A DNA stretch of 64,000 nucleotides. Origin: Nitrosospira multiformis (lineage in GTDB: Bacteria > Pseudomonadota > Gammaproteobacteria > Burkholderiales > Nitrosomonadaceae). The DNA lies in NCBI GenBank assembly GCA_017306155.1, contig JAFKJB010000007.1, positions 1 to 64,000 of the forward strand, given 5' to 3'. Both the position numbers and the translations under genes were made by a program. The notes beneath the pieces are model-generated. The model saw only the letters and a list, made by a program, of their open reading frames with translations, ran no database searches and was not told the DNA's origin. The first letter of the stretch is position 1; every line of letters begins with the position of its first letter. This document shows positions 52,990-64,000 of the stretch, piece by piece.

Positions 52990-54369
52990 ATGGAATCAGG
53001 ACGCGCTCTTTTTTTACTGCTTGCGAGCATGCTCGCCCACATCATTTCTGGATGTGCGCCCGTTTCTGCGGCCACGACGTATAGGGGAACACCCTCCAAT
53101 TATCGGGTGCTACTGAAGGGACTCAAGCCGGGTGACCGCCTGCAACTCGCCCCAGGGAATTATAAGGAGGGGCTGCCAGTCCACTATCTTCATGGAACCC
53201 CGGATGGGCCCATCACGATTAGCGGAGCCAATGGAAAAAACCGGCCGGTCTTCCTGGCGCGGCCGGGTCACAACACCATCAGCATCCTCAATTCCGGTTA
53301 TATCGTCATTCGCGATCTGGTCATCGAGGGCAATAACTTACCGGTGAGCGGAGTAAAATGCGAGGGACATGCAGACTGGGCACATCACATTACCCTCGAG
53401 GGGTTACGCATGCGCGGCCATGGCAATAATCAGCAGACCGTTGCCATCTCCACCAAATGCCCCGCCTGGAACTGGATAATACGCAACAATATCATCGAAG
53501 GCGCCGGCACGGGAATCTACCTCGGCAATTCGGATGGTCGAGCGCCGTTTGTGGCTGGTTTGATCGAGCACAATCTGATCGTTGACACGATCGGCTACAA
53601 CTTGCAGATCAAGCATCAGGCGCCGCGCCCAGTGCTTTCGGGGATGCCGCACGGACGTAACACAACGGTTATCCGCCATAATGTTTTCAGCAAGGCTGAC
53701 GGCGGATCCGGGGAGTCGGCGCGCCCTAACGTACTGGTCGGCCACTGGCCTCTCGCCGGTCCCGGCTCAAGTGATCTTTATCTCATCTATGGCAATTTCT
53801 TTTATCAGAATCCGCACGAATCATTGCTCCAGGGTGAAGGGAACATTGCTCTGTACAATAACGTGTTTGTAAATCACTCTGGCGATGCGGTTCGCATCCA
53901 GCCTCACAATGACATACCTCGATCGGTCAGTGTTTTCCACAACACCGTGCTAGCGAAGGGGACAGGCATCAGGCTGGTCCATCACGGATCAGGCTCAGGG
54001 TATCCTCAATTTGTCGTTTCCAATATTATTTTCGCAGAATCACCCGTAAACAGCGCGTTCATGAGAAGCAATCTGATCGGCAAATTCAATGAGGCTTCGA
54101 ATTATCTTGCTCGCCCGTTTGCGCCACTGGGAGAGATGAACCTTAGCCCCTTGGCGACCGTCCTGTCCAAGGCAACAAGGAACGCGGAAGATATTCCTCG
54201 TTTTACCGTCTATCCGGACGCCGATCGGGATTTCGATGGCAGTTCGTACGGCACGAAAGGAATAGGCGCATACGCCTCCGGAAAAAAAATGCCTCGTTGG
54301 CTCCCCGTACTGGAAATCAAGCCTGTACTCCCAACGCATGAAAAATCGCCGGCCCTTTTCTTCGACTGA
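52990..54369 (+). CDS. Right-handed beta-helix lipoprotein, lyase/epimerase-like
   Basis: The protein has 459 residues. The leader ends in ISGC (near residue 22), a lipobox, so it is a probable lipoprotein. PGDRLQLAPGNYKEGLPV and GPITISGANGKNRP near 45-80 match the first coil of pectate lyase/chondroitinase-B-like beta-helices, followed by many short strand repeats (RDLVIEGNN, IIRNNIIEGAG, VIRHNVFSKADG, ALYNNVFVNHSG). Catalytic residues and substrate cannot be assigned. The 3' end overlaps the next gene, for a VanZ-like membrane protein, by 32 bases, suggesting coupled expression and a role on a cell-surface glycan. Confidence 0.85.
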   Translation: MESGRALFLLLASMLAHIISGCAPVSAATTYRGTPSNYRVLLKGLKPGDRLQLAPGNYKEGLPVHYLHGTPDGPITISGANGKNRPVFLARPGHNTISILNSGYIVIRDLVIEGNNLPVSGVKCEGHADWAHHITLEGLRMRGHGNNQQTVAISTKCPAWNWIIRNNIIEGAGTGIYLGNSDGRAPFVAGLIEHNLIVDTIGYNLQIKHQAPRPVLSGMPHGRNTTVIRHNVFSKADGGSGESARPNVLVGHWPLAGPGSSDLYLIYGNFFYQNPHESLLQGEGNIALYNNVFVNHSGDAVRIQPHNDIPRSVSVFHNTVLAKGTGIRLVHHGSGSGYPQFVVSNIIFAESPVNSAFMRSNLIGKFNEASNYLARPFAPLGEMNLSPLATVLSKATRNAEDIPRFTVYPDADRDFDGSSYGTKGIGAYASGKKMPRWLPVLEIKPVLPTHEKSPALFFD

Positions 54370-56542
54370 ACACCATTCCGGAACGCGAATCCTCGCGATC
54401 ATCCTGCTGCTGATTGCTTACGGGTCACTATACCCCGGCAATTTTTCCGCCCCTCCCGCCGGCAGTGTTCAAAGATTTCTTACTGACTTCCACTGGTTCA
54501 CTTCCCTGGGGGATGTATTAGGCAATATCGCACTGTTTTTTCCACTGGGCATGGCCGGCGTTATCTTTCGGCGTTCCAGAGCGAGCGACAGGAACGGGTT
54601 CATCATCCTGTTTTTTCTGTCATTCGCGTACGCATTCGCTCTTCAGTTTGCACAGATTTGGCTGCCGTCCCGATCTGCAGCGTTAACCGATGTGATGTGG
54701 AATGAGGTGGGCACGATCTCGGGCATGGGGGCCGCTCACCTTGTTGAGACACATTTCAGGAAGAATAAAGGGAAGGCAATGTCATTCCATTATTCTTCTC
54801 TCCTTCCATTATCGATATTGGCGCTGTGGTTGCTCAGTCAATTGATGCCCCTGGTTCCCTCTCTGGATTGGCAGAAATTCAAGGACGCGCTGAAGCCGCT
54901 TTTCCTCGATTTCAGCTTCTCCTTCCCGGAACTCCTTCTGCAGGCAGCCGGTATGTTTGCTGTTGCCAGCGCAATACTGGCATTGAACCGCCCGCTGGCC
55001 TTGTGGTTGACAGGTATGCTTGCACTAACCCTGCTGGGAAAAATTGTCACCGTGAATCTGACCTTGAATGCATCGACCGTAACCGGATTGCTGGCGGGCT
55101 ATGCAGGATGCCTCGTGGCGCTGCGGCTTGGCCGAGCGAGGATAATCATTGAAACAGCCTTCCTGGCACTCCTCATCGCCTGGACCATTGTCGGAATAAC
55201 GCCTTTCTCTCCCGGTTCGGGGGGCAGCTTCAATGGGATTCCGTTTGCAACCATGCTCCAGGGATCAATGGAAGCTGCCGCCCGAGGATTGTCGCAATCT
55301 CTGTTTATTTATACTTCTCTGCTTTGGCTGGCGCAGAAACTGGGAATCGGCCACTACAAAGCCGTAGCCGGTGTTGTCATATGGTCATTTCTGATCGAAC
55401 TCATGCAGATGGGCCTGCTGGGCCGGGTGGCAGATATTACCGAACCTGTATTGGTGCTGCTGGTTGGATTTGCATTACACGCGATACAGAACGCGGAAAC
55501 AGCTTCTTCAGAACCACTCGCCCCTGCTATTCCAAGGAAACCGGGCACAGAAATGAGTGGAGAAATAAGCGCAGAAGCGGGCTATAGGCGTTTGCTTGCC
55601 CGAACCGCAGCAGGAATTGTCATATGGGTAGCGATTGCCTGGGTAATCACAAAGTCTTCCTTGACTCCTTATAATGTCAGGGAACTGGTATATGAAGGAC
55701 ACCCTTTCCGATCCCTGCTGCTGCTAGGCCTGCTGCTGTACTGGACACTGGGTTTTCCGGTGCTGATCTTGCAGTGGCTGATGCGAGGGGGGCGATATCT
55801 GCTCGCTTTTGTGCCGCTGGTCTTGCTGCACAGTCTAGTCGCATGGCTGCTGGTATGGGCTGCCGTACCCACGGAGAGCATCCATGACGTGGTTGGGTCA
55901 CCTGTTCTGGGTTGGCCGTGGGAATGGGAACTGCTGGGACGTTTCGTGGCATTGTTCAGCATATGGAGTGTGGCAGCGACGATGGGCAGTCTCATCGGTG
56001 CAGGGCATTTTCTTGAGAATCCGGGGACAGCACTATCCGGATGGGCACTCGGCGCCTGCGCGATTATGCCAGTTGCTTATCACGTCGTCGTGCGCGAAGC
56101 CTCCACGGATAATCTGGTCGAACTCATGGCGGATAATGGCAGCGCAGGCGCCTTTTTCCTGATCAGCCTGGCTATGATCATACTCACGTTTGCTGGAACG
56201 AAAGCAGGATTGGCGTTCGTTGTGCGAGGGAAGGACATAATAAGGACGGCGATATGGGTACTCGTGGCTGGCGTTTTAAGCTACCTTGCGCTATATTCCG
56301 GCCTTGAGCAGGTAATTATCAAGTACGGGCAGGTTTTTTCCGCGATGCAGTTCCTGCTGAGCAGTGATCGCGCTCAGCTTGCAGGTCCAGGTGAGTTATT
56401 GCTTCGATACGCCGTGGTCTATTTTGGTATGGTCATCGCAATCGTGACGGTGCAGAATCCAATATGGCATTGGTTTACCAGGCTATTGCCTCGACCGACC
56501 AGGACTCGCGATATTATTCCCGCGGAGAACCGCTCAGCTTGA
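54338..56542 (+). CDS. Large VanZ-like membrane protein
   Basis: A 734-residue polytopic membrane protein with some 18 hydrophobic segments. The first VanZ-like module covers about 15-140 (AYGSLYPGNFS, LGDVLGNIALFFPLGMAG, QIWLPSRSAALTDVMWNEVG). A second occurs near 320-390 (FLIELMQMGLLGRVADITEPVL). The remaining 330 residues are membrane segments with an unknown relationship; SSLTPYNVRELV near 447 hints at a third VanZ-type start. VanZ proteins are of unknown biochemical role, with links to glycopeptide resistance. The ATG at 54338 is inside the end of the beta-helix gene and has no ribosome site of its own, so coupling is likely. Confidence 0.8.
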   Translation: MKNRRPFSSTEHHSGTRILAIILLLIAYGSLYPGNFSAPPAGSVQRFLTDFHWFTSLGDVLGNIALFFPLGMAGVIFRRSRASDRNGFIILFFLSFAYAFALQFAQIWLPSRSAALTDVMWNEVGTISGMGAAHLVETHFRKNKGKAMSFHYSSLLPLSILALWLLSQLMPLVPSLDWQKFKDALKPLFLDFSFSFPELLLQAAGMFAVASAILALNRPLALWLTGMLALTLLGKIVTVNLTLNASTVTGLLAGYAGCLVALRLGRARIIIETAFLALLIAWTIVGITPFSPGSGGSFNGIPFATMLQGSMEAAARGLSQSLFIYTSLLWLAQKLGIGHYKAVAGVVIWSFLIELMQMGLLGRVADITEPVLVLLVGFALHAIQNAETASSEPLAPAIPRKPGTEMSGEISAEAGYRRLLARTAAGIVIWVAIAWVITKSSLTPYNVRELVYEGHPFRSLLLLGLLLYWTLGFPVLILQWLMRGGRYLLAFVPLVLLHSLVAWLLVWAAVPTESIHDVVGSPVLGWPWEWELLGRFVALFSIWSVAATMGSLIGAGHFLENPGTALSGWALGACAIMPVAYHVVVREASTDNLVELMADNGSAGAFFLISLAMIILTFAGTKAGLAFVVRGKDIIRTAIWVLVAGVLSYLALYSGLEQVIIKYGQVFSAMQFLLSSDRAQLAGPGELLLRYAVVYFGMVIAIVTVQNPIWHWFTRLLPRPTRTRDIIPAENRSA

Positions 56543-56715: not shown

Positions 56716-59700
56716 TTGAGTAACGCCACGAACTCAGGACAATATCAGCTCAACAGGTCATCGCTTGTTGGGCCTGTCCTGGTCTATCTGGTGATTATCG
56801 TATATGGAAGCTTGATTCCATTCCATTGGAATGGTCTCTCGCTTGACGCCGCATGGGTAAATTTCCAGCATATCCCGCTGTTGAAACTGGGAGTAGCCAG
56901 CCGCGCAGACCTGGTAGCCAACCTGCTTTTATATATCCCTTTCGGACTGCTGCTCTGCGGTTGGCTGGTCGGAGAAGATCGACAACCCCGGTTAATGTCG
57001 ATCGGCATGCTGTTGTCGTTGCTGTTTTCATTGACAGTTGCGCTAGGCGTGGAATTTATCCAGCAATTTTTTGCTCCTCGAACCGTCTCGCTGAACGATA
57101 TTTTTGCAGAGCTTGCCGGCTCGATATTAGGAATCGCGCTCTGGCCTGTCATTGGGAAATACCTGACGCTTCTGCCACGAACCATTGCCAGTGGAGGTGT
57201 GCAGGCACGACAGGGTGTACTGATCGCGTACGTCCTGCTGTATGCGGTACTCAGCTTATTTCCTTATGATTTTCTACTGTCCTTCGACGAATGGCGGGAC
57301 AAATTGGCCTCCGGTAACGCCGGATGGGTTTTTGCCCCGAATTGCGGTGAAAAATGCTTTTTACGACTCATCCCGGAGGCGCTACTGGCTGCCCCGCTGG
57401 CCGCGCTGATCTTTCAGCATTCCAGACAATACCATCTACCTTCCCTGCTTCTTTCCGCAGCAATTACGGGCGCAATACTGGGCGTTCTGATCGAAAGCCT
57501 GCAATTGACGATTGCATCCGGCATCAGCCAGGGGGCCTCGGTTATCTCACGTGCGGCAGGCCTGACACTTGGAGCCGGACTGATACCGTTCGCCAGCAAC
57601 CTGGATTGGCTGGCATTGCGCCGATATATCAAACCGGTACTGGGCCTGTGCATCCTCCCCTACCTTGGGGCGCTTGCGTGGCTGAACGGCTGGTTTTCGG
57701 GCGAGCGGCTGGGTGCATCCGAAGGTTTGGAGAGGCTTGGAGACATACGCTTTATACCGTTTTACTATCACTACTTCACCACTGAAACAGCCGCGCTTAT
57801 AAGCCTGTTATTTCAAGCCGCGCTTTATCTACCTATCGGGGCAGGCTTATGGATCTGGCGCTGGAGCTGTTTCCCGAGCGGGTGGCAGCAAGACTTCCAG
57901 CGGAGAGCAGCCGTTGCTGGACTGGTCGCCGGAATAGCTGCATGTATTATTGAAGCCGGCAAGCTCTTCATTGCCGAGAAGCATCCAGATCCAACCAATG
58001 TCCTGATAGCGGCAGCGGCAGCGATGGGAGCATATCGCCTGCTCCATGCATTATCTCCCACTCAACCAGACACCACGGCATCATCTGCGCAGCTCAAGCC
58101 CGAGGAAACTGCCCCGCGTCATTATTTGCCTCCGGTTCTGGGAAAGTTTGCGGAAATCCATCGATCTGAGCGGCTTTTCTCTAATGAACGTCCTCATTGG
58201 GCAGTGGCCGCTGGTATTCTCGCTATCGTTGTTGCGGCCTGGGCTGCGATAACGACTCCACTCGGCGCAGGCTGGGTTTCCTTATCTCTTATCGTATATG
58301 CAGCATTGATCTGGTGGCAACCCGGTCTATGGCTCGTCTGGGTGCCCGCCTTGTTACCCCTGCTTGATCTAACGCATTGGACCGGCCGATTGTTCTGGAC
58401 CGAATTTGATACGGTACTTCTGGTTACCCTGGGCGTGGCCTATCTCAGGCTCGGCTCCAGGCTGCCTCCGCAACGCTCGTTGAGAAAGCTGGGACGATGG
58501 CTGTTCTTCCTTTTTATACTGTCCGCAGCAATCAGCTTCATCATCGGCTTGTTCCCGCTGGCGGCACTCGACCATAACGCCTTCTCGAGCTACATCAGTT
58601 CTTATAATGCGTTACGGGCGGTCAAAGGTTTGTTATTTGTTCTGGCTTTTATGCCTTTGCTGGCACTTCAATGGGAAGAGCCGCTGCGCGCCACAAACCG
58701 CCTAGCTCTGGGAATGACGCTGGGGCTGGCAGGAACGGTAGCTTATGTATTGTGGGAACGCGCTACATTCCCGGGACTTTTCAATTTCGAGAATGACTAT
58801 CGCATTACCGGACCTTTCCCGGGCATGCATGTTGGCGGAGCTTATATCGAAGCCTTTTTGACGGCTGCGTTGCCGTTCGTGGCACTTCTTGCATGGGGGC
58901 AACGCCGCGCCTGGGTTACGGTATTGGCGGTGGGCCTGTATGGCTTGGGGGGATATAGTGTGATGGTGACGTTCTCCCGCGGCGGCCAGGCAGCTTTTGC
59001 ATTGGCGAGCCTGGTTCTGCTGCTCGGCTTCCTGAAGCTTGCAGCACATGGGCGTTCGCATCGCTTTTCCAACATGATAGCAGTGAGCATAATTGTCGGA
59101 GTTGCGGCAGTCATCACATGGCCCATTTTCAGCGGACAATATAGCCAGGCACGCTGGGCAACAGCAGAGCAGGACATGGAGGCGCGCACCACGCATTGGG
59201 CTGATGCCATTAGTATTGCCCAGAGGCAAAATGCGTCGCTTTTTGGCATGGGCTTAGGCTCGTTTCCAGCAGCCTATTTCTGGAATTCGAATGCACCCTC
59301 TCGCCCCGCCACTTATGGATTCATCAGCAAAAACGGAAACAGCATATTACGGCTCGGCAGTGGTAGTCCTCTATATTTCGAACAGATCGTGGCGGTTGTA
59401 GCGGAGCAATGGTATACGCTGTCAATGGATTTGCGTGCGGAAACCGGAAACCCGACGCTGATCGCAACGGTCTGCGAAAAAGCAATGCTTTATTCTTACA
59501 CCTGTACGCACGTGCCGCTGCAGGATAATGCAGGTAATAGGGATTGGTCTCATTTTGAGATGCAAATTCATGCCACGAATTTTGGCCCTCCGGGAAGCCG
59601 GCTCACGCGGCCAGTAAAATTATCACTCTATAACAGCCAGCCCGGCACTGTAGTGGATGTAGACAATGTCACGCTGCTGGATATCTCCGGAAAAAACCTG

Positions 59701-60072
59701 GTGCGTAATGGCGATTTTTCCGAAGGCATGCATCATTGGTTTTTCTCGGCAGATGACTACCTGCCGTGGCATGTGGAAAATCTGTATTTGAGTGTTTTCT
59801 TTGAACAGGGCTGGTTCGGGCTGCTCTGCTTCCTTGCGCTCATTGTCTATGCGATCGTACGGTGGTTGCCGCACGCATGGAGAAATGATCCGCTGAGCCT
59901 GGTACTATGCGCATCGCTCACGGCCTTTCTTGCCGTCGGCCTCTTGAACAGTTGGGCAGACGAGCCCCGCCTCAGTTTCCTGTTCTACCTGTTACTGATC
60001 GCGGGATTGATCGCCGAAGCACCTTCTGTTCAGGCAAGGCAGCACTCCGCCCTGGTTCGGAACAGTCCATGA
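56716..60072 (+). CDS. Triple VanZ–O-antigen ligase/polymerase-like fusion
   Basis: This protein has 1118 residues and starts with TTG at 56716; an in-frame stop at 56704 and no ATG before the first helix leave little choice. Three VanZ-like modules occur in sequence: about 20-150 (GVEFIQQFF near 111), 168-290 (LIESLQLT near 258) and 345-440 (IIEAGKLFI near 411). From about 490 follows a Wzy/WaaL-type domain with FSRGGQAA near 753. The large periplasmic loop (about 870-1018) carries a beta-rich insert, including NLVRNGDFSEGMHHW near 992, like a CBM4/9-type module. It is followed by HVENLYLSVFFEQGWFG, close to the ligase signature. A role in glycan polymerisation or ligation is inferred. Confidence 0.82.
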   Translation: MSNATNSGQYQLNRSSLVGPVLVYLVIIVYGSLIPFHWNGLSLDAAWVNFQHIPLLKLGVASRADLVANLLLYIPFGLLLCGWLVGEDRQPRLMSIGMLLSLLFSLTVALGVEFIQQFFAPRTVSLNDIFAELAGSILGIALWPVIGKYLTLLPRTIASGGVQARQGVLIAYVLLYAVLSLFPYDFLLSFDEWRDKLASGNAGWVFAPNCGEKCFLRLIPEALLAAPLAALIFQHSRQYHLPSLLLSAAITGAILGVLIESLQLTIASGISQGASVISRAAGLTLGAGLIPFASNLDWLALRRYIKPVLGLCILPYLGALAWLNGWFSGERLGASEGLERLGDIRFIPFYYHYFTTETAALISLLFQAALYLPIGAGLWIWRWSCFPSGWQQDFQRRAAVAGLVAGIAACIIEAGKLFIAEKHPDPTNVLIAAAAAMGAYRLLHALSPTQPDTTASSAQLKPEETAPRHYLPPVLGKFAEIHRSERLFSNERPHWAVAAGILAIVVAAWAAITTPLGAGWVSLSLIVYAALIWWQPGLWLVWVPALLPLLDLTHWTGRLFWTEFDTVLLVTLGVAYLRLGSRLPPQRSLRKLGRWLFFLFILSAAISFIIGLFPLAALDHNAFSSYISSYNALRAVKGLLFVLAFMPLLALQWEEPLRATNRLALGMTLGLAGTVAYVLWERATFPGLFNFENDYRITGPFPGMHVGGAYIEAFLTAALPFVALLAWGQRRAWVTVLAVGLYGLGGYSVMVTFSRGGQAAFALASLVLLLGFLKLAAHGRSHRFSNMIAVSIIVGVAAVITWPIFSGQYSQARWATAEQDMEARTTHWADAISIAQRQNASLFGMGLGSFPAAYFWNSNAPSRPATYGFISKNGNSILRLGSGSPLYFEQIVAVVAEQWYTLSMDLRAETGNPTLIATVCEKAMLYSYTCTHVPLQDNAGNRDWSHFEMQIHATNFGPPGSRLTRPVKLSLYNSQPGTVVDVDNVTLLDISGKNLVRNGDFSEGMHHWFFSADDYLPWHVENLYLSVFFEQGWFGLLCFLALIVYAIVRWLPHAWRNDPLSLVLCASLTAFLAVGLLNSWADEPRLSFLFYLLLIAGLIAEAPSVQARQHSALVRNSP

Positions 60073-60270: not shown

Positions 60271-60915
60271 CTAGATCGCCGAGCGAAACCTGAGTCCAGC
60301 GCTGGTGGCACCCGGCACCATCAACAAATGGCCACTGAGCGTGCATAGCATTATTGGGCCGGTTTTCCAGCCTGCGTGCTCGAAGACAGCGAGAGAGGGC
60401 ACATTAGTTGCGCGAACATGCGCGATTATCCGATGAACGTTACGAGTTGAAAGATCGCTTACGGTTGCGGCGATTAATCGCTGGGCGGCACCTCGTCGAC
60501 GATATGCTGGCCATGTATATAGATAACTCAGGAAGGCATCTGTTTCGGCCATCCCCAAGTATAGCGGCGGTGAATCGATCCGGCAGGCGGGTCCACGCTC
60601 GATACTGAGCTGCGCTACGAGCGAATCATCAGCCAGCAATAGATGCAAACTGCCTCCATGCCTAAGAAGTTGTTTTGGATTTGAACCGCATTGCTCAGCT
60701 GCACGTTCAATTATATCGCTGGAGAGATTGGACAGTGCCTCGTCAGTGTACAAGCTCAAGTAGCGCCAACCGGACGGTAGCATCAATGACTTGCTCGGCT
60801 GAGCAAATATCCAAACAATACGAAATACGTCAATCCGGGTAAGTAATTTCAGTCCGAAATAAGCGGCGGCTCGCAGTCCTCCGGGGCCTTTCAAGAATTC
60901 CAGTCTCTCCTTCAT
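60271..60915 (-). CDS. GNAT family N-acetyltransferase
   Basis: The protein has 214 residues with the acetyl-CoA binding motif A visible as YRRRGAAQRLIAATVSDL near 145-160, followed by VRATNVPSLAVFEHAGW, the typical motif B. The N-terminal 90 residues are variable; YLSLYTDEAL and CGSNPKQLLRHGG are notable. Substrate unknown; a surface sugar or amino sugar is plausible from context. The start is seven bases after the stop of the upstream transferase gene, so the two are one unit. Its end faces the VanZ fusion gene across 198 bases with no clear terminator. Confidence 0.85.
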   Translation of the reverse strand: MKERLEFLKGPGGLRAAAYFGLKLLTRIDVFRIVWIFAQPSKSLMLPSGWRYLSLYTDEALSNLSSDIIERAAEQCGSNPKQLLRHGGSLHLLLADDSLVAQLSIERGPACRIDSPPLYLGMAETDAFLSYLYTWPAYRRRGAAQRLIAATVSDLSTRNVHRIIAHVRATNVPSLAVFEHAGWKTGPIMLCTLSGHLLMVPGATSAGLRFRSAI

Positions 60916-60921
60916 TAAAGC

Positions 60922-62073
60922 TCAGTTTCCGCCTGTGGAGCGCCTGACGGCGATATCCCGGACCATCCGCTTGATATGCGCTTTGAGGCCGCTCTTATCA
61001 AGCCAGCTTCCAATTGCCTCGGATAGCGTGTTGGTCGCGATCAGTGCATATGCATAAGCTGTGCCCGGCCAGCCGCGCGGGATCAAGTAATAGTGCCGTT
61101 CCTCCCGTGATGCATTTGACATTCTCTGCTTATATAAACTGTCTCCAGCCAGGAAATCAAAGCGGTAAATTCCTGCTGTCATTAGATCGGCCATAACCTC
61201 GGTATGCAGATAAATACCCGGTTGCAGCTTGGATATGGCTGGATCATACCCTACATGGTGTGCATAATAGGTGTGCCTGTCGTGATAGCCAAGCTGGAAA
61301 GCAACCGGTTTGTCCCCGATCTGGAGAATGTACGCCCTAAGCCAGCGATTTTCGGCCATCTTACGAAGGTACGCGACCTGTTCCGCTGTGTTTTCAAGCC
61401 CAAGGCCAAGCAGATGATATTGATAAGTCTTGCGGGATACTTCCGCCAGAGCCGCTGCGAGCTCCTCGATTTGTTCCATTTCTGTGTAACAGGCCAGGGT
61501 TACCGCCTCCCCCGCCTTCACGCTGAAATTCCTGCGGGTGCGCCGCACATCCTTACGGCTTTCACTTCCCAACGTTCGAAGATAGTCCTCGAATTGCGCT
61601 CCCTCGGGTAGCTCGATGAGTCGCCGGGTATAGGAGGGGCCGTAGGGCACCACATGGAAAAGACTGTAAACCATGGTGTCTCGCGATGTCAGCAGATTGG
61701 CCAAAGGCGAGCCTGCTGGTACACCCTCGAAAAACACAACCCCTCGCGCGCCTATTGTTTCCCGGAGAAGCTTGAGCAATCCTGTCAGCGACGAAGAATC
61801 CACACACACAGGCTCTCCCTGCATTGCATGCCTTCGCACTGGAATGCGGAATAAGGTTGTCTCGCCAAAGCAGTACGCAAGTGCTCCTGGATGAACAAAA
61901 AAGGGAGCATACCCGCAAGGGTTTTGTGAATCCCCCTGAAAAAAATAATGAATAGACTTGTCCAGACTATCGACACGACTGCTCAGCCAGCGGGGATCCA
62001 GTGCAAGGGGTATAGTGCCTGGCAGAGAGAGGTCAGGAATATTGCCTGGAACGTCAGCCAAGTACCACTGCAT
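60922..62073 (-). CDS. FemAB/GNAT-fold transferase, copy 1
   Basis: This 383-residue cytoplasmic protein belongs to the BioF2/FemAB-like acyltransferase group (GNAT_6). Conserved parts: SESRKDVRRTRRNF near 170, then ILQIGDKPVAFQLGYHDRHTYYAHHVGYDP near 265 (shown here by its KPVAFQLGY core), the PGIYLHTEVMADLM helix and FDFLAGDSLYKQRM. The ATG at 62073 is chosen for AAGAAGG five bases upstream; an ATG at 62121 overlaps the previous gene. The C-terminus LDKSGLKAHIKRMVRD resembles that of the next gene upstream, so the two are paralogues. Substrate unknown; in such loci they often modify exopolysaccharide or peptides. Confidence 0.85.
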   Translation of the reverse strand: MQWYLADVPGNIPDLSLPGTIPLALDPRWLSSRVDSLDKSIHYFFQGDSQNPCGYAPFFVHPGALAYCFGETTLFRIPVRRHAMQGEPVCVDSSSLTGLLKLLRETIGARGVVFFEGVPAGSPLANLLTSRDTMVYSLFHVVPYGPSYTRRLIELPEGAQFEDYLRTLGSESRKDVRRTRRNFSVKAGEAVTLACYTEMEQIEELAAALAEVSRKTYQYHLLGLGLENTAEQVAYLRKMAENRWLRAYILQIGDKPVAFQLGYHDRHTYYAHHVGYDPAISKLQPGIYLHTEVMADLMTAGIYRFDFLAGDSLYKQRMSNASREERHYYLIPRGWPGTAYAYALIATNTLSEAIGSWLDKSGLKAHIKRMVRDIAVRRSTGGN

Positions 62074-62110
62074 CATAACCTTCTTTGAAATGGATGATAT
62101 GGACAAAGCA

Positions 62111-63052
62111 TCAAATTCCAAACCTCATCATTTTTTTTAGCCTTGACTTAAGCCCGAGCTCATCAAGTTTATCGCCGATTGCATTACTGATATAGTCGAC
62201 AGTCCGCTGACCATGCAGCAGAAACCTATTCTGGATGTTGTTGCGCAGAAAAAAAACATTGGCGCACTGAATGCTGTGTGTTGCAAACAGCTTTTTGTGC
62301 TCGGATTGCCCCTCTGTAAAGTCAAAAAAACGGAATTTGCGCTCTTCGAATAAATACTCCAGGGCGAGCCACTGCAAAACGGTGCCGACTGAAAAATTCA
62401 TATAACCGGGATCATACCCAAGAAATGCATAAATTAGCACGCCGTTTATAACAGGGCAGTAGAGATACGAGATGGGTTTATCTTGATAAAAAAGAATGAA
62501 CCCACGTACCCTATCCTCGCCAGCAAGCTGTTCAACTCCCCGACAGAATTCCTCTGAATCTGGCAGCCCTTCATCAAACAATCTCTCCTGATAGCTTATT
62601 CTGGACACAATGCGTGCAAGCCGAAAGAATTCGGCCATTTCGCCAGGAGATCTGTAGACTCTCCAGGAGATACTGCCACCGCAATGCTCTGTGTACTTCC
62701 GTATTTTGCGGCTGATAGTCGAGCGCGTCTTAGCGGAAAACTTGCCCTTGTATTCCGCAAACGACTGCTGCATGTCGATGTAATAGCGGGGATACTGGGC
62801 GGGAACATAGCACAGATATACGCCTTGCTGCCGTAGCACGGGTTGTGGTCCGGTGATGCGCAGCGATCTTATCAGGAAGCCCTGGCTTCCTTCATGCAGA
62901 GGATCAGCGGGCACTATTGGCTCGGCTACGGGGAGTGCTTCATCATCAAGTCCCGCTTCCCGCACCTGCAACAATAACCGGGGGGCAAGTAGAGTCTTGT
63001 CGCCCAGTTGTATCTTTATCGGCACCTGCTGGCAATGCCATGTCTGATTCAA
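62111..63052 (-). CDS. FemAB/GNAT-fold transferase, copy 2
   Basis: The protein has 313 residues from a TTG at 63052. The start is firm: AGGAGG lies five bases upstream, and the TTG overlaps the stop of the deacetylase gene in the sequence TTGA. An ATG at 63181 would extend into that gene. The fold matches the BioF2/GNAT_6 group: KFSAKTRSTISRKIRK near 110, then GFILFYQDKPISYLYCPVING and GTVLQWLALEYLFE, and FFDFTEGQSEHKKLFA. The C-terminus LDELGLKSRLKKMM parallels the neighbouring copy. Substrate unknown. Translation is coupled to the deacetylase. Confidence 0.85.
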   Translation of the reverse strand: MNQTWHCQQVPIKIQLGDKTLLAPRLLLQVREAGLDDEALPVAEPIVPADPLHEGSQGFLIRSLRITGPQPVLRQQGVYLCYVPAQYPRYYIDMQQSFAEYKGKFSAKTRSTISRKIRKYTEHCGGSISWRVYRSPGEMAEFFRLARIVSRISYQERLFDEGLPDSEEFCRGVEQLAGEDRVRGFILFYQDKPISYLYCPVINGVLIYAFLGYDPGYMNFSVGTVLQWLALEYLFEERKFRFFDFTEGQSEHKKLFATHSIQCANVFFLRNNIQNRFLLHGQRTVDYISNAIGDKLDELGLKSRLKKMMRFGI

Positions 63053-64000
63053 CGAAGCCTCCTGAGCAAACCCTGCTCCAGCATTCTGAATCCCGTTTTC
63101 CAGACCGGTGAGGTAAGCGGAGCGGGTTGCAGGGGAGCAGACACAGGTATCAGGCCATGAAAGCCCCGTACGCGAAAACAATCCCGATGCCGGTCAAGGA
63201 AAGAGCAAAGTTTATGAAAACGCTCTATTACAATCCCGTCCGGACGGTCCATCGCCGGGTTAAGCAATTCGAAATTATGCGACAGGATGACAAAGGCTTT
63301 ACGTCCGGACTCCAGCGACTGCCAGAGCAGGCCCTCCATCTCCCGATAAGAACATGCAGTCAGTTGGGCATGCCGCAACCCGCCCAGGCCGCTGTCGAAG
63401 ACCGTCATCGGATATTCGTACACACCTTCGCATTCGACAGGCTCCACCAGTGGCATTTCAGGACTGACGCCGCTATCTTGTCCGAGCATGCTCGCGTTGT
63501 AGCTGCTGTCGAAAGTGATCTGGTTCGCCTTCAGGGCGCGCAACGTGTCCCGGTTGAAGCCAAAACCTCCCGCACGAAACGCGTTTACACGCGGCGCTCC
63601 TGCTGATTCGATCAACCGTACGCCTGCCTGTATCAGGATTGTTTGCTCTTCCAGTGAAAAATAGCGCAGATGCTGCCTTTTGCGGCTCACATTGTCGAGC
63701 AATGGCCGGTTCGATTCATCTACCCATTCGGTGTGGAGATGAAGCTGTATTTCATGATCTTCCTCCCGAATGAGAGCAAGAATCTCCGCCAGCGGCTCAC
63801 GACCAAACCGCGTCGAGAACAGGGGTTCAACAAAAAATACCCCCGTCAATCCGTAATCCCGCAACTGGCGCAACTGGTATGGCAGGCCATAATCCCCGTT
63901 AGGGGTAGAACCATAGATATACCTCCGGAAGGCTGACGGGAATTTGGCGTCGAGGTCCTCCCAGCCATTGCACCATACCTCGACGTCAACAGTAAGGAAT
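63049..64000 (-). CDS. Polysaccharide deacetylase, WalW-like (5' end cut by window)
   Basis: The reading frame runs without a stop from 63049 to the window end, so the start is outside. The visible N-terminal end reads FLTVDVEVWCNGWEDLD, with the metal-binding aspartate of a NodB-type first motif, and QLHLHTEWVDE holds the second-motif histidines. FRAGGFGFN and LSHNFELLNP follow. This is the layout of WalW-like deacetylases in exopolysaccharide loci, which remove acetyl groups from glycans. About 317 residues are visible. The stop overlaps the TTG start of the next gene by four bases. Confidence 0.88.
   Translation of the reverse strand, partial: FLTVDVEVWCNGWEDLDAKFPSAFRRYIYGSTPNGDYGLPYQLRQLRDYGLTGVFFVEPLFSTRFGREPLAEILALIREEDHEIQLHLHTEWVDESNRPLLDNVSRKRQHLRYFSLEEQTILIQAGVRLIESAGAPRVNAFRAGGFGFNRDTLRALKANQITFDSSYNASMLGQDSGVSPEMPLVEPVECEGVYEYPMTVFDSGLGGLRHAQLTACSYREMEGLLWQSLESGRKAFVILSHNFELLNPAMDRPDGIVIERFHKLCSFLDRHRDCFRVRGFHGLIPVSAPLQPAPLTSPVWKTGFRMLEQGLLRRLR

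Follow-up and report, generated by a model that had tools for sequence, protein, structure and literature searches.

Three tandem VanZ modules and an insert-bearing O-antigen-ligase-like domain in one protein encoded near an exosortase A locus of Nitrosospira multiformis

In a stretch of 64,000 nucleotides from Nitrosospira multiformis (assembly GCA_017306155.1, contig JAFKJB010000007.1, positions 1 to 64,000; hereafter, the window), we have analysed a gene whose product had been read, in a first-pass annotation made from the sequence alone, as three VanZ-like modules followed by an O-antigen-ligase-like domain with an extra beta-rich insert. The layout of three VanZ modules and an insert-bearing ligase domain in a single open reading frame (ORF) is confirmed (Table 1), and the gene is located with an exosortase A (XrtA/PEP-CTERM) exopolysaccharide (EPS) cluster and its accessory genes. 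The explanation that we favour, at about even odds, is that the fused protein serves that EPS system as a glycan transferase or polymerase facing the periplasm. The ORF contains zero internal stops over its 1118 residues, and its exact start is unsure because no clear ribosome-binding site was seen by eye. A chance origin of the fused layout is excluded because it is conserved in 23 distinct proteins; the closest relative among the named genome contigs, also from N. multiformis, is 88% identical.

The Pfam VanZ model (PF04892) matches three stretches of the protein (E value 5.5e-13; 50.1 bits against a cut-off of 30.1), and the recurring E-x-x-Q/K motif that the annotation had placed at about residues 111, 258 and 411 is found at E113/Q116, E260/Q263 and E413/K416 in modules 1, 2 and 3, respectively. 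Profile-profile comparison with hhalign, using slices of a 17-row alignment as profiles, gave 93.7% for modules 1 and 2, 86.7% for modules 1 and 3 and 61.3% for modules 2 and 3, against at most 2.6% for a module paired with a slice of the ligase or insert (15 pairings); among the control slices themselves, values were high only for pairs that overlap in sequence (C1-C2, C2-C3 and C4-INS). These comparisons indicate that the three modules are mutually homologous. The AlphaFold model of the full-length protein is weak (predicted local distance difference test, pLDDT, 59.4; predicted template modelling score, pTM, 0.47); it has three repeats of a transmembrane (TM) helix, a handle and three further TM helices, 12 helices in total. 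The best 50 of its 553 fold matches in the PDB appear to derive mostly from the insert, and a PDB sequence search with the single fused protein gave no match at an E value of 10. A count of charged residues in the loops did not fix the topology of the VanZ modules.

VanZ has been placed in the Lipocone superfamily, with a predicted active site built from residues of helices H2, H3 and H4 (Burroughs et al. 2025; PMC12419801). The same paper predicts that VanZ acts on lipid-carrier-linked sugar head groups and counts WaaL-like ligases among its associates, so that the statement in the first-pass annotation that VanZ function is unknown should be updated; this chemistry is offered there as a prediction, and the role of VanZ in antibiotic resistance is still called unknown. 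By our own alignment and by motif, N69, E113 and D128 correspond to the Asn of H2, the Glu of H3 and the Asp of H4 in the VanZ-1 site. Conservation was read from 36 triple-VanZ proteins (23 ligase-fused, 7 heparinase-fused and 6 with the cassette standing alone). This count excludes L076-L079, which are divergent VanZ-heparinase proteins, and five further triple-VanZ proteins (L035-L037, L039 and L072); duplicates and partial copies (L001, L002, L048, L050, L051, L053 and L057) were removed before this count and that of the 40 ligases below. Sixteen positions are invariant, among them N69, E113, R122 and D128 in module 1, D185, E221 and E260 in module 2, and E357 and E413 in module 3. The predicted Lipocone/VanZ-1 site of module 1 is thus present in 36/36. 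In module 2 the H4 Asp position is occupied by Ser in 34 of the 36, and in module 3 N428 is variable and D425 is kept in 35. Only module 1 has the whole predicted site, and we therefore read it as probably active and the other two as probably derived. A tree of 123 module copies, which is built on few columns and leaves 55 of its 119 inner branches open, joins the second modules of the 36 proteins in one group (Shimodaira-Hasegawa-like approximate likelihood ratio test, SH-aLRT, 99) and the third modules in another (98), which suggests that the triplication came before the partner changes described below.

The ligase domain shares with the O-antigen ligase/Wzy_C, TIGR03097 and PglS proteins the RxxG, SRGG, GxGxG and H-x-x-N..ExGxxG motifs. 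The Wzy/WaaL-type domain named in the annotation was recovered at the border of detection: Wzy_C (PF04932; cut-off 31.7 bits) scored 30.0 bits in hmmscan, just under, and 36.6 bits in the genome scan; the relative L021 also scored 36.6 bits. The protein is not a member of TIGR03097 (PEP_O_lig_1; 30.5 bits against a cut-off of 188.1). A true member (506.9 bits) lies on another contig of the same genome, so the fused gene is no stand-in for the TIGR03097 ligase. R696 and R755 are present in 40/40 related ligases, and H1019 is kept in 33, this protein included; their correspondence to residues of WaaL/PglS was drawn from motifs only. For PglS, pyrophosphate-guiding arginines and a catalytic histidine have been hypothesised by comparison with WaaL, and H324A served as the inactive control (PMC12800693).

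The catalytic loop of the ligase is lengthened by about 144 residues (aa 869-1012), somewhat more than the 130 or so first estimated. When modelled alone, this insert is nearly all beta (pLDDT 80.9; pTM 0.80) and its model matches CBM4/CBM16 (carbohydrate-binding module, CBM) folds, so that the predicted jelly roll of the CBM4/9 type next to the H-x-x-N motif was recovered as a fold in the model. Both features on which the first-pass reading had been staked, VanZ-like N-terminal segments and a beta-sandwich in the insert, were found. The VIA-align comparison was run for the insert only. In its natural order, the CBM_4_9 profile (PF02018) gave no match to the fused protein at an E value of 1 or to the insert at 10; some relatives have matches below the cut-off. 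The NGDFSEGMHHW motif that had been taken as the CBM4/9 signature lies at 998-1008, at the end of the insert, with H1019-V-E-N1022 directly after. Because the NGDF strand stands at this end, the insert looks like a circularly permuted CBM_4_9. It is carried by all 40 related ligases in our collection, of which 23 are fused to triple VanZ, and so is a trait of the ligase family; the collection was retrieved by queries with the fused protein or an alignment built on it, and relatives free of the insert may be under-sampled. One insert-bearing ligase (L066:166-3429; domains at 36-642 of 1087 aa) has about 440 further residues, in which no Pfam match was found at an E value of 0.01.

Relatives were collected from named genome contigs, which gave 8 loci, with a ligase fusion at 6 and a heparinase fusion at 2, and from further genomes of the order and class. 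At the level of the order, some match was found in 34/200 genomes and the full fused length in 9, and at that of the class in 65/369 and 10, respectively (own genome included in both cases); the remaining genomes have heparinase fusions or matches to parts of the VanZ or ligase regions. The partner of the cassette is not always a ligase, because in seven proteins (L010, L011, L062, L063, L068, L069 and L070) it is joined to a heparinase II/III-type lyase, a domain recognised by Pfam in L010 and L011 and by a profile built from these two in the other five. The divergent L076-L079 have one recognisable VanZ and a heparinase II/III-like domain. In G028, G088 and G129 the triple VanZ and the insert-bearing ligase are separate genes on the same contig, about 3 to 4 kb apart, and in G088 and G129 the N-terminus of the separate ligase itself resembles VanZ weakly (20 and 28 bits). 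On the partner tree, the starred branches force at least two changes for the ligase, one for the heparinase and two for the cassette alone; the number of fusion events is unsettled because 14 of the 37 forks are open. L035-L037 and L072 form a second triple-VanZ family, in the first three of which all VanZ copies read as ordinary VanZ by eye. Their first modules nest within those of the ligase-fused proteins (L036 with L006; SH-aLRT 98), on account of which the module 1 copies need three changes; this position on the tree suggests an exchange of single modules between genes. None of the 28 stretches of viral contigs with a pattern match encodes a relative. At L096, two VanZ-heparinase genes are adjacent.

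The link to the exosortase system comes from the locus and from the distribution of the gene. The XrtA gene starts about 7 kb downstream of the fused gene, accompanied by members over their cut-offs for TIGR03108, 03088, 03087, 03019, 03006, 03015, 03016 and 03007; the cluster contains an amidotransferase, exosortase A, glycosyltransferases, FemAB, a deacetylase, an ATPase, an outer-membrane protein and a chain-length determinant. An exosortase is present in 17/17 genomes with the fused ligase versus 7/19 sampled from those without a match to it, a comparison that ignores kinship; 5 of these 7 belong to the same family as our genome. Clustering of the neighbours at 29 context loci, with arbitrarily chosen stretches from 9 of these genomes as the 9 control regions, yielded several families confined to the context loci (0/9 controls in each case), where flank lengths differ between loci and each family is named from one representative. 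These are the beta-helix proteins (9/29), a family represented by Trypsin_2 (11/29; short HtrA-type proteases such as L092:16303-17067), secreted proteins of about 140 aa (7/29; no Pfam match in the one member scanned), the asparagine-synthase-like family of the XrtA amidotransferase (7/29) and one family in which a member is a TIGR03099 decarboxylase (6/29). Among the loci, L005 is a near relative of our own genome, and the triple-VanZ-heparinase gene of L098 was left out.

For this domain layout, conservation and locus, which we observed directly, the biochemical roles suggested by the families would combine as follows. The GT-C ligase domain would take a glycan chain off its undecaprenyl-pyrophosphate carrier and move it to an acceptor, with R696 and R755 holding the pyrophosphate and H1019 acting as base, and the CBM-like insert, which stands in the catalytic loop just ahead of H1019, would keep hold of that chain. 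At its carrier end, the lipid-linked glycan would be handled by the triple-VanZ cassette, which shares the membrane with the ligase: module 1 may be catalytic, cleaving a phosphoester so that the carrier is freed or recycled or chain growth stops, and modules 2 and 3 would be derived partners that shape or bind. With four helices per module and the N-terminus inside, all predicted sites would be periplasmic. Several observations weigh against this reading, besides the uncorrected kinship in the exosortase comparison. Modules 2 and 3 keep the predicted site only in part, and module 1 lacks the full H4 motif DxDDxxxN, reading SLNDIFAE, in which the final Asp is kept and Ser, Asn and Glu stand at the rest of the motif positions. 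We found no biochemistry for VanZ catalysis in the open-licence literature. H1019 is replaced by Arg in 6/40 and by Asn in 1/40 ligases; as all seven are in the fused group, the ligase activity of some fused proteins may be changed or lost. The gene is patchy in its own genus (6/23 genomes), the listed genes between it and XrtA in our genome are on the opposite strand, and, within the flanks retrieved, L004 and L006 have no gene cluster in common with the XrtA locus. Finally, non-sugar-binding jelly rolls score closely behind CBMs against the insert, whose glycan binding is putative, and whose proposed part in positioning the acceptor glycan we infer. The insert might instead be structural only, a loop stabiliser or lid that does not bind sugar; we regard this as somewhat unlikely.

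It is rather unlikely that the VanZ cassette is a non-catalytic scaffold that docks the ligase or lyase at sites of lipid-linked glycans, leaving only the C-terminal enzyme active. The lack of a whole predicted site in modules 2 and 3 would fit such a role, and the presence of the cassette on unrelated enzymes is what is expected of a targeting unit; however, a scaffold would seem to need less than the conservation of N69, E113, R122 and D128 in all 36 proteins. We give still less credence to the fused protein being chiefly a chain terminator, whose cassette releases mature EPS and whose ligase attaches it to a lipid or protein surface anchor. Terminal release has been proposed as one possible VanZ role (PMC12419801), and the heparinase-type partner of other family members would presumably also act on formed chains, but no acceptor is known, and sequence tests cannot separate ligases from polymerases. 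That two genes were joined through a sequencing or assembly error is refuted by independent genomes, the same join recurring in 23 distinct proteins, with no internal stop in the full-length fused hits of the order and class searches. Teicoplanin resistance as a role was set aside on context only. Returning to a role in EPS synthesis, the change of partner (ligase, lyase or none) points to exopolysaccharide, either lipid-linked or nascent, as the likely substrate. More tentatively, and with well under even confidence, the cassette might be a general platform for processing undecaprenyl-pyrophosphate-linked glycans in exosortase-type EPS systems, in which one catalytic and two derived Lipocone units hold the carrier end and different glycan enzymes (the permuted-insert ligase, a heparinase-type lyase or another membrane domain) are plugged on. 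If so, the ancestral job of VanZ would be to cleave or exchange the carrier-phosphate end of lipid-linked glycans.

Compared with VanZ-1 (PF04892; PMC12419801), our protein shares the predicted helix pattern of a four-helix unit with an H1-H2 handle, the EPS context and, in module 1, the H2 Asn, H3 ExxQ and H4 Asp, whereas it differs in having three tandem modules, two of them derived, in the SLNDIFAE sequence of H4 and in its fusion to a ligase (a lyase in other proteins). The triple-VanZ cassette precedes heparinase II/III-type lyase domains (PF07940) in the seven proteins named above, whose partner is a lyase and not a ligase. From O-antigen ligase/Wzy_C, TIGR03097 and PglS our protein is set apart by the beta-sandwich in the catalytic loop and the N-terminal triple-VanZ cassette. 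Insertion of CBM4s in a catalytic domain is known from Xyn10C-like enzymes (PMC7848910; the CBM of the Xyn10C xylanase is PDB 4mgq), but these are soluble and xylan-degrading, with tandem CBM4s in Pm25, whereas here a single insert is found in a membrane transferase. Links of VanZ to EPS and to WaaL-like ligases are already published; the triple-cassette fusions appear to be new, and are built from known parts. Neither the fusion of triple VanZ to a permuted-CBM ligase nor that to a heparinase was found in the open-licence literature searched, and the main text of PMC12419801 has no mention of heparinase or exosortase, although its supplementary figures and tables may hold such fusions. VanZ is widespread, and its fusion with an enzyme of known reaction type makes the prediction of its function testable in one protein, the more so as one of the modules keeps all of its predicted active-site residues. 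If the insert is indeed a permuted CBM, its place in the catalytic loop would give glycan ligases a new way of handling the chain.

Table 1. Positions of the fused gene, its domains and neighbouring genes in the window, and of members of one neighbour family at other loci
Feature	Position	Strand	Remarks
Right-handed beta-helix protein (459 aa)	52990..54369	+	Repeatedly found near triple-VanZ genes
Upstream gene, another VanZ protein (734 aa, 2 Pfam stretches)	54338..56542	+	C-terminal membrane domain common to L035-L037
Fused gene, 3 x VanZ and O-antigen-ligase-like domain with CBM-like insert	56716..60072	+	1118 aa; TTG start
VanZ module 1 (aa 15-152)	56758..57171	+	N69, E113, D128; invariant R122
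VanZ module 2 (aa 162-298)	57199..57609	+	E260 kept; S275 at H4 Asp position; E221 at H2 Asn position; D185 invariant
VanZ module 3 (aa 300-446)	57613..58053	+	E413; D425 in 35/36; invariant E357; conserved PFYYHY motif
Ligase domain, N-terminal part (aa 490-868)	58183..59319	+	R696, R755, R824; GxGxG 844-848
CBM4/16-like beta-sandwich insert (aa 869-1012)	59320..59751	+	Conserved C920/C930; NGDF..W 998-1008
Ligase domain, C-terminal part (aa 1013-1100)	59752..60015	+	W1018-H1019-x-x-N1022; FEQGWFG
GNAT-like protein	60271..60915	-	Weak RimI-model match, far under cut-off
Acetyltransf_6 / FemAB-like protein	60922..62121	-	Edge of XrtA cluster
Second Acetyltransf_6 protein	62111..63181	-	
Secreted ~140-aa family members	L007:7254-7679, L009:11181-11597, L011:7224-7817, L096:14173-14583		

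The NCBIfam scan of neighbours covered 122 of the 141 ORFs of at least 250 aa within 6 kb (18 of more than 700 aa and one of 671 aa were left out); it was dominated by ABC-transporter models, and HtrA/MarP-type models matched 9 of the 122. The only VanZ match of our genome outside the window (G000:C4:78858-83595) has a second exosortase match about 250 bases away and a further O-antigen-ligase match at a distance of about 4 kb.
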